From an uncultured Acidobacteriota bacterium (GTDB lineage: Bacteria; Acidobacteriota; Thermoanaerobaculia; UBA5066), in the NCBI GenBank assembly GCA_903845115.1, contig CAIMWE010000138.1:1-44462 (forward strand): a stretch of 44,462 nt of DNA, given 5' to 3'. The position numbers and the translations under genes are program-made. Shown in pieces: positions 2,220 through 4,271 of the stretch (position 1 is the first letter of the stretch; each line of letters begins with the position of its first letter). The notes beneath the pieces are model-generated. The model was given only the letters and a program-made list of their open reading frames with translations. It had not been told where the DNA came from and did no database searches.

Positions 2220-3779
2220 TTACGGCTTCCCGGACACGCGGGGCAGCGAGACGTCGAAGATCCTCAGGGCATCGACTCGACCGGCAGCGTCGAAGGTGAA
2301 CTGGACCGTCTCCTCGAGGTTGTCGGGCTCACCGACCTTCCAGAGAAACGTGTCGAGGACCTGGTGGGTGAGCGGCGCCCGCATCCGGTTCCAGCGAAGC
2401 GCCAGCATCCCGTCGTCGACGGCCACCGTCATCGCCCCGTGGGAGAGGTTCCGGTAGGTGCCTGCATAGGAGGTCAGGTCGAGCGACGGGTTCGTTTCCG
2501 GCGTCCGGCTCGCCTCCTGCGCCCTCTTCCTCGCCTCGCTCCGCGCCTTCCCCTTCGCCTCCAGGTCCAGGTAGTAGGCATTCCAGTCGCGGGACGGGGC
2601 GCCCGCCACGATCAGGTCGTAGAGGCCGTTCCGCAGGGCCAGCAGCGCCTGGGCCCTCCCGGCGTTCGTCAGGAGGACGAAGCCCACGGAGCGCTTCGGC
2701 AGGAGGTCGACGCGGGCGCGGAAGCCGTTGAGGGAACCGGTGCGGGTGACGAGCAGCTCTCCCCGATGGTCCTGGATCACCCAGGCCATCCCGTGCGCCA
2801 TCAAGTTCGTCTCGGGGTTGCTCGCCCGGGTCGACTCCTCCAGGCGGATCACGATCTGCGGCGACTTCGTCTCCTCGAGCGCCTCCGCCGAGACGAACCG
2901 CTTTCCGTCGATCGTCCCGTTCCCGAGCTGGAAGTGGACCCATCGGGCGAGGTCCCGCGCGGTCGAGTTCACCGTGCCGGCCGGCCCGAGCGGCTCGTTC
3001 GGGATCGGGATCTGGGGGACGATCCGGCCGTCCTCGGCCACCTTGTGTCCGGCGGCCCGGTCCTCGGCCCCGAGCCACTCGGCCTCGCTGACACCGGTCC
3101 CGGACATCCCGAGCGGCGCGAAGATCCTCGCCCGGACCAGGGTCTCCCACGGCGTCCTCGCCGCCGACGCCGCCGCCTCCCCCGCGGCCATCAGCATGAT
3201 GTTGTTGTAGCCGTACTGCGAGCGGAAGGGGCGCGCCAGGGGGAGGAACGCGGCCCGGCGAATCACCTCTTCCCGGCTCCAGGGCGAGTCGTCCCACAGC
3301 TCGTCGTGCTCGGCCAGGCCGGTCCTGTGGGAGACCAGGTCGCGCAGGGTGACGAGCGAGTCGGCGCAGGGGTCGGAGAGCCGGAAGTAGTCGAGGTGGG
3401 CGCGGACCGGGTCGTCCCAGCGCAGCTTCTTCTCGTCCACCAGCATCGCCATCAGCGTGGTCGTGAACGCCTTCGTCGCGGAGCCGATCTGGAAGCGCGT
3501 GTCGGGCCCCACCGGCTCCTTCCCGTCCAGGGTCCTGACGCCATAGCCCTTCAGGGCAACGACCCGGTCGTGGTCGACGATCGCGATGGCCAGCCCCGGC
3601 AGCTGCCACCGCTCCATCGTCGCGGCAACGAGCCGGTCGACGGCAGCGGAGTCGAACGGGGAGCGGTCGGCGGCCTTCGTTTCCCGGGCGGACGCTTCCG
3701 GGGCGGGAATTGGCGCCGGCTGAGACGCCGAGACGCCGGACAGGGCCAGGACCGCAAGGAATCCACGGAGTGGCTTCAT
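2220..3779 (-). CDS. Secreted serine beta-lactamase-like hydrolase (class C/DD-peptidase fold)
   Basis: This 519-aa protein begins with an N-terminal signal peptide (basic MKPLR, then a hydrophobic stretch ending near SAS). The beta-lactamase/esterase fold follows. The nucleophile motif SATK is at about residues 100-103, the Tyr motif is YGYNN, and RTGSLNGF stands in the position of the usual KTG/HTG triad. The last ~100 residues resemble a DUF3471-type beta domain (SYAGTYRNLSHGAM...). Family members are periplasmic or extracellular D-amino-acid peptidases or esterases; few are true beta-lactamases, so drug resistance should not be assumed. It is monocistronic. A -10-like TATCAT ends exactly 6 nt before the ATG, suggesting a leaderless transcript. 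Confidence 0.85.
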   Translation of the reverse strand: MKPLRGFLAVLALSGVSASQPAPIPAPEASARETKAADRSPFDSAAVDRLVAATMERWQLPGLAIAIVDHDRVVALKGYGVRTLDGKEPVGPDTRFQIGSATKAFTTTLMAMLVDEKKLRWDDPVRAHLDYFRLSDPCADSLVTLRDLVSHRTGLAEHDELWDDSPWSREEVIRRAAFLPLARPFRSQYGYNNIMLMAAGEAAASAARTPWETLVRARIFAPLGMSGTGVSEAEWLGAEDRAAGHKVAEDGRIVPQIPIPNEPLGPAGTVNSTARDLARWVHFQLGNGTIDGKRFVSAEALEETKSPQIVIRLEESTRASNPETNLMAHGMAWVIQDHRGELLVTRTGSLNGFRARVDLLPKRSVGFVLLTNAGRAQALLALRNGLYDLIVAGAPSRDWNAYYLDLEAKGKARSEARKRAQEASRTPETNPSLDLTSYAGTYRNLSHGAMTVAVDDGMLALRWNRMRAPLTHQVLDTFLWKVGEPDNLEETVQFTFDAAGRVDALRIFDVSLPRVSGKP

Positions 3780-3791: not shown

Positions 3792-3837
3792 TCCAGGGAC
3801 CGGCTCGCCGAATCCAGTCGCCCGGGCGGCCGCCCGA

Positions 3838-4183
3838 AGTACCCCGCTCCCTAAATACGATGACGTGCGTTCGGAGCGCCGCGCGGCCAGGTGGGAGGCG
3901 TCGCGACGAACGTGGCCGTCCGACCTCGGAGGAGCGACAACAAAGCAGACGGCCGCGCGCCGCCCGAACCCATCGAGCCTTCCCGTCTAAAACAGCGCCC
4001 CAGCCAGTGGAGGGAGCAGGGGGCGGCGAGTAGCGCCCCCCGGAGAGAGCGCAAGGCGGCTGCGGGCGATTTCTGCGTTGCGCCTCCTCGGCGGAGAGCC
4101 AACTCCAGCCTGCGTCGGCGCGCCTTGAAAGCGCCTCGCAGGCGCCATGCGCGCACGTCACTGTATTTGTGGGGCGGGGTACT
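3838..4183. mobile_element. MITE-like non-autonomous element with terminal inverted repeats
   Basis: The 492-bp gap between the serine hydrolase and the GNAT gene contains a 346-bp segment bounded by inverted repeats. The left end (3838-3869) begins AGTACCCCGC and contains AAATAC then TGACGTGCG. The right end (4152-4183, reverse complement) reads the same way, ungapped, with about 27 of 32 bases identical. Weaker complementarity continues for another ~11 bases. No credible ORF lies inside, and no target-site duplication is evident at the ends. The interior has several short GC-rich hairpins. This fits a MITE or REP-derived element moved in trans; I cannot name the transposase family. Confidence 0.6.
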
Positions 4184-4271
4184 AAGCCGCCTCGGCGTCC
4201 TCCCCCTCCCCGCCGCCGCCATCCGCTCGAGCCGCCGTCCGAGCCGTTCGCGTCCCTTGCTCCTGTTCCCT

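Follow-up and report, generated by a model that had tools for sequence, protein, structure and literature searches.

The interior of a MITE, its ends aside, is generally taken as free to vary. With regard to insertion sites, IS630 prefers CTAG, and the eukaryotic Zator and PIF/Harbinger (Tourist-like) elements create TWA duplications. Zator is paired with ISAzo13-like elements in the available part of one account (PMC5718144). The IS1031 group is described, in the accessible portion of another, as having a TNA target and a 3-bp repeat, and the same text gives the end of ISLrh as GAACCTGTCTAGTATCT (PMC12016507). TIRtrons and TIRYT, as far as the available sections of their description go, are associated with tyrosine (Y1) transposases, and some have a GGGGWSAS motif (PMC3733652). 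Among described MITEs, Chunjie, Correia and QMITE are portrayed in the accessible part of the source as short and gene-less, with inverted ends and direct repeats, and as forming size series down to REP-like forms (PMC10969869). The element described here is like them in all of these respects. Our literature search found no paper devoted to Chunjie, and a search for the core and end strings of the present element yielded nothing related.

A multicopy miniature element and its insertion sites

The 346-base element lies in a stretch of 44,462 nt from an uncultured Acidobacteriota bacterium, hereafter the window. It is real, it is a MITE and it is one of many copies in its genome. The label MITE-like, given in an initial annotation made from the sequence alone, is therefore apt for what is a multicopy element of <500 bp with inverted ends and no gene. 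Its best boundaries are 3839-4182, with G...C at the edges. The 32-bp ends previously proposed as inverted repeats were confirmed, as the left end (3839-3870, + strand, starting GTACCCCGCTCCCTAAATACGATGACGT) and the right end (4151-4182, - strand) match at 27/32 positions, a level that none of the 43,217 equally spaced end pairs elsewhere in the window reaches (maximum 23). An ungapped inverted repeat of 43 bp is 77% complementary. The interior is indeed hairpin-rich, with fold z-scores of -6.4 as RNA (+ strand) and -4.8 as DNA (- strand), and no shuffled sequence folded as well as the 346-base stretch (0/100, both as RNA and as DNA). It also appears non-coding as described; mechanical open reading frames cross the element, yet no gene is evident, the sequence is a repeat and its conservation tracks base pairing. 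The adjoining gene (2220-3779, - strand), upstream of whose start the element sits, encodes a product with the Pfam Beta-lactamase and DUF3471 domains.

Searching its own genome for the element returned at least 60 matching pieces (40 of 106 candidates scored), and the copies occupy unrelated sites. Three are long (344-353 bp; the window, C156 and C70), five are medium two-ended copies of 272 bp (C166, C92, C130, C113 and C305), and identity among these eight is 93.8-98.9% over aligned bases. Four further copies of 52 bp consist of the two ends only (C221, C63, C13 and C100, the last with a damaged left end), and C259 holds a 101-bp deletion form; other fragments are present too. Another 12 copies are cut by contig ends (C195, C140, C27, C253, C155, C84, C76, C34, C44, C169, C205 and C269), and some of these may be one locus counted twice, since C269 and C166 have an identical right flank. 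The 52-bp copies are joined at a single ACGT, a motif that the window element has twice at the base of its interior hairpin (3863-3866 and 4155-4158, + strand). The simplest explanation would be that their interior was lost between the ACGT repeats, although these copies may also have moved in that form. Palindromes of 42-52 bp that contain MITE ends only and mostly have CTAG borders occur in genome G031 (L157, L158, L159, L161, L162 and L169), in parallel with the 52-bp copies. The initial annotation had held that a single copy, together with the lack of a transposase gene with matching ends, would speak against its proposal. The element is multicopy; a transposase with matching ends has so far not been found, the only candidate in the genome being a piece of an ISAzo13 transposase with a differing visible end.

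The statement that no target-site duplication is visible proved to be mistaken. A 3-bp duplication of TWA within CTWAG exists and is imperfect in the window copy, where a degraded GAA on the left (3836-3838) faces TAA, followed by G, on the right (4183-4185). Among the 12 two-ended copies of the same genome, the flanking 3-mers are identical in six, one base off in five and further apart in one. A core-bearing element in one Planctomycete genome (14 loci fetched, two of them dropped because they lie at contig starts) exhibits identical 3-mers in 7/12 and 3-mers one base off in 5/12. Every one of the 13 identical duplications is TAA/TAA or TTA/TTA. The identity of the flanks is not merely a longer inverted repeat, as inverted-complement flanks occur in 0/24 copies (12 from each set), and the unlike outer bases of two Planctomycete loci (L120 and L137) argue for a three-base rather than a five-base duplication. 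The 52-bp copies retain good duplications despite having no core, which suggests that movement may not require the core. A search for an empty site in 13 relatives, using the surroundings of the window copy, found no orthologous site.

Other core-bearing MITEs vary in this respect. A second class, in G022 and G031, duplicates TA, mostly within CTAG; TA pairs were seen in 6/6 cases in G022 and among 15 pairs, with exceptions, in G031. In two Planctomycete MAGs, core-bearing elements with ISAzo13-like ends (L118 and L129) have flanks of C-AT-G, not C-TWA-G. A scripted boundary search of 28 further core loci, which serves here only for the ends quoted from it (e.g. L219, L220 and L221), gave eight with ends and a 2- or 3-bp duplication (one imperfect), 18 without ends and two without a pattern-recognisable core.

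A conserved folded core in MITEs with unlike ends

Between its ends, the element consists of two inverted copies of a core of ~90 nt, module A at 3876-3964 (- strand) and module B at 4055-4145 (+ strand), which score 51.5 and 86.5 bits to model R1, respectively; both were among the sequences used to build R1, so these scores are not independent of it. The two copies are separated by a G/C-rich segment of 72 bp (3972-4043), which is found only in the three long copies. Relatives of this segment occur without the rest of the element in G005, G009 and G011, and a related fragment lies on contig C242 of the same genome. This hairpin segment represents a separate short repeat family. Its relatives include GGGGGGTCCGGGGGGCGGCGAACAGCGCCCCCCGGAGAGCGCGC and loci L014, L016, L017, L023 and L048, with two copies close together at L023.

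The folded form of the core is conserved beyond its sequence alone. In a 16-pair structure, 60 cells among 23 sequences changed on both sides, compared with 21.7 +/- 3.2 after shuffling (0/500), although the structure was taken from the fold of these same sequences and kinship inflates such counts. Sliding the partners left 8-11 both-side changes, and 89.4% of cells pair versus 70.4%. Two of the five covariation measures are weaker, namely the number of pairs with a both-side change (10 vs 7.9; 4/500 shuffles) and the number of further pair types (23 vs 20.1; 49/500 shuffles). The outcome was the same with a 13-pair structure and 21 sequences. By eye, the apical hairpin covaries as AACC/GGTT, GGAG/CTCC and GATG/CATC, and a T.G pair beside an unpaired base is conserved in 21/23 sequences, the other two having C.G. 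Half-repeats in module B (4073-4090 and 4109-4127) are predicted to oppose each other in the fold, which would render the folded core nearly two-fold symmetric.

This core is by no means confined to the window's family, as the corresponding parts of the element (element positions 33-135 and 209-315) reappear in other genomes next to ends of other kinds. An exact-pattern scan with one genome per species yielded 38 core stretches, and every one came from a MAG labelled Acidobacteria/Acidobacteriota or Planctomycetota. A covariance model of the core, built from 23 sequences, had matches (E <= 1e-5) in 47/297 sampled genomes of the phylum, seven of which had supplied model sequences, and in 33/167 genera; controls consisting of 12 ISAzo13-transposase loci and four Y1 loci yielded nothing with E up to 1. 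Plasmid and phage records contained nothing that matches the element at the DNA level. A second core-bearing MITE family, with ends GAGGCTGTGAAGG, exists in the same genome (L056-L062 and L249, on contigs C300, C273, C267, C208, C201, C117, C76 and C198), and its two-ended copy L061 has a TCA duplication in CTCAG. In the Planctomycete genome G060, distinct core-bearing MITEs are neighbours or directly adjoin one another (L128, L131 and L124). Here, then, a MITE interior is common to elements with unlike ends and changes by compensating pairs, and such a conserved core makes selection inside a MITE testable.

Candidate transposases and the role of the core

The 38 matches to GTACCCCGCTCC ends in the element's own genome revealed no autonomous element; of the two lone matches among them, one is a degraded mini copy and the other half a copy. 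Similarly, none was found among 42 end matches in G060, where paired ends span about 160 bp and the rest are single. End searches in G031 and G022 found short elements only, except for a 4-kb pair on G031:C49, which encloses several open reading frames that we read as ordinary genes. An autonomous copy could be hidden, as the draft assembly breaks at repeats and copies are cut by contig ends. Transposase genes were additionally sought by profile, using PF01609 in five genomes, PF13359 and PF01797 in 12, and PF13340 and PF07592 in 22; the set of 22 comprises 21 core-bearing genomes (20 of this phylum and one Planctomycete) plus G001, where the element had no match.

We lean, by a little over an even chance, towards the view that the element is a non-autonomous MITE moved in trans by an ISAzo13-type DDE transposase, with its core acting as folded DNA. 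The transposase would cut at the G...C ends, the element would insert into CTWAG with duplication of the middle TWA, and the core between the ends would help in recognition or retention of the element. The insertion mark is ISAzo13-like, the ends of sister MITEs are ISAzo13-like and the window family is joined to them stepwise, while the mover itself is mostly missing. In an end search that required G...C and favoured exact duplication, 5/10 ISAzo13 loci on plasmids had an identical TWA duplication with inverted ends (L250, L251, L253, L254 and L256), three of them in full CTWAG; two others match at 2/3 bases and three gave no ends. When 16 ISAzo13 ends were combined into a matrix, with 71,045 genomic 20-mers as the background, it recognized 6/10 ends of core MITEs outside the TA class at p <= 2.3e-4 (G060, L208, L210, L223, L129 and L155), and the second family of the window's genome reached p = 0.007. 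The same matrix matched neither of the window's own ends directly (p = 0.43 and 0.40; G014 lies within 0.40-0.44), and gapped alignment of these ends to three IS ends gave nothing below p 0.02. The window's ends are linked to ISAzo13 only via intermediate MITEs, along a chain of end similarity from the own family through G014, G060 and L129 to the ISAzo13 of G219; each step has p = 0.0005, which is the floor of 2000 shuffles in pairwise alignments of 55 pairs of chosen ends.

Several observations sit poorly with an ISAzo13-type mover. L129, a link of the chain, is flanked by CAT/TAT rather than TWA, and the second core-bearing class duplicates TA, with 0/7 of its ends matching the ISAzo13 matrix. 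PF07592 (ISAzo13) was present in only 2/22 genomes, G219, where the transposase is in two frames, and the window's own, where the one ISAzo13 transposase found is a reading frame without the family's N-terminal part and its single visible end differs from those of the element. The genomes with the most ISAzo13-like MITE ends (G060, G233, G295 and G151, i.e. those of G060, L208, L210 and L223) have no PF07592. Matches to the ISAzo13 protein occur in 168 plasmid records but in none from phages.

Other transposases have been considered. An IS5-family (IS1031-type) enzyme, which is also a 3-bp TNA duplicator, seems an unlikely mover. The TNA target and 3-bp repeat reported for that group in the available part of the source (PMC12016507) fit, as does the CCTGTC in the ends of some core-bearing MITEs (L046, L219, L220 and L221). 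However, PF13340 was found in 0/22 genomes and PF13359 in 0/12, and the two PF01609 matches in the own genome, one of them under the cut-off, lack clear inverted ends. A gene for a PF01609 (DDE_Tnp_1) transposase lies at C130:1093-1872 (L086) and has no clear inverted ends. A transposase like those of IS630/Tc1-mariner, as the mover of the TA class at least, has a comparably low probability. ISAzo13 resembles IS630, and G219's main ISAzo13 protein also hits the IS630 profile, though below the threshold of that model (8.2e-08), a similarity that may account for the TA class; the TA duplications of G022 and G031, mostly in CTAG, agree with such a mover, but the window's family duplicates three bases. 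It is highly improbable that the element is of REP/IS200-IS605 type and is moved by a Y1 transposase in single-stranded form; the initial annotation had seen the lack of a visible duplication as consistent with IS200/605- or REP-type movement. The strong hairpins would suit it, Y1 genes occur in 8/12 genomes, with four in the own genome, and TIR-flanked tyrosine transposases are described in Acidobacteria in the accessible part of one report (PMC3733652). Nevertheless, the copies are flanked by a direct duplication of 3 bp, none of the 30 Y1 loci scanned has the window's ends (L104 and L106 have one half-repeat-like match each), and the core-bearing genomes G002 and G007 have no Y1, G007 being only 83% complete. 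Two of the own Y1 genes, on C141 (L098) and C222 (L105), are flanked by GGGGTCAGG-type inverted repeats, which are unlike the element and resemble the TIRtrons of Di Nocera 2013; none could be made out clearly at the other two.

The core itself permits further readings. It is quite improbable that the core serves the host as a functional RNA or regulatory cassette and is mobile only incidentally. The covariation and the invariant unpaired bases would be expected of an RNA, but Rfam has no match for the window stretch or for seven other loci at the core, and the copies sit at unrelated sites. Moreover, the pairing departures within four families (G.T 21, A.C 19, other 24, compensated 7) have no bias towards pairs tolerated in RNA and hence lend no support to selection on the RNA strand. 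More plausible, though still doubtful, is that the core is an independent folded-DNA module of MITEs with unlike ends, of both TWA and TA types and in at least two phyla, recognized by one conserved factor other than the end-matching transposase. If so, mini-transposons that are otherwise unlike would have the core in common as a helper site or would carry it as a passenger. We favour a core that acts as folded DNA, either hairpin or cruciform, and aids recognition or retention of the element.

Comparison with known systems

An ISAzo13-type mover would give that family a large group of non-autonomous relatives; in a search that left out most subscription journals, we found neither such relatives nor a link between ISAzo13 and MITEs. 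The G...C ends and the TWA duplication, often in CTWAG, are common to the element and to the ISAzo13 family (PF07592, NF033519), and several sister MITEs share end sequence with that family. In contrast, the ends of the window element differ, the element has no transposase gene, and none of the 12 ISAzo13-transposase loci examined contains the core. The eukaryotic Zator and PIF/Harbinger (Tourist-like) elements resemble the element in their TWA duplication. TIRtrons and TIRYT share with it the occurrence of inverted repeats in Acidobacteria, often as dimers, and are Y1-linked in the portion of their description available (PMC3733652), whereas no such link was seen for the element at the Y1 loci examined. 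Compared with Chunjie, Correia and QMITE, as far as the accessible descriptions of these go, the element is set apart by its covarying core, which is common to unlike-ended MITEs of two phyla.
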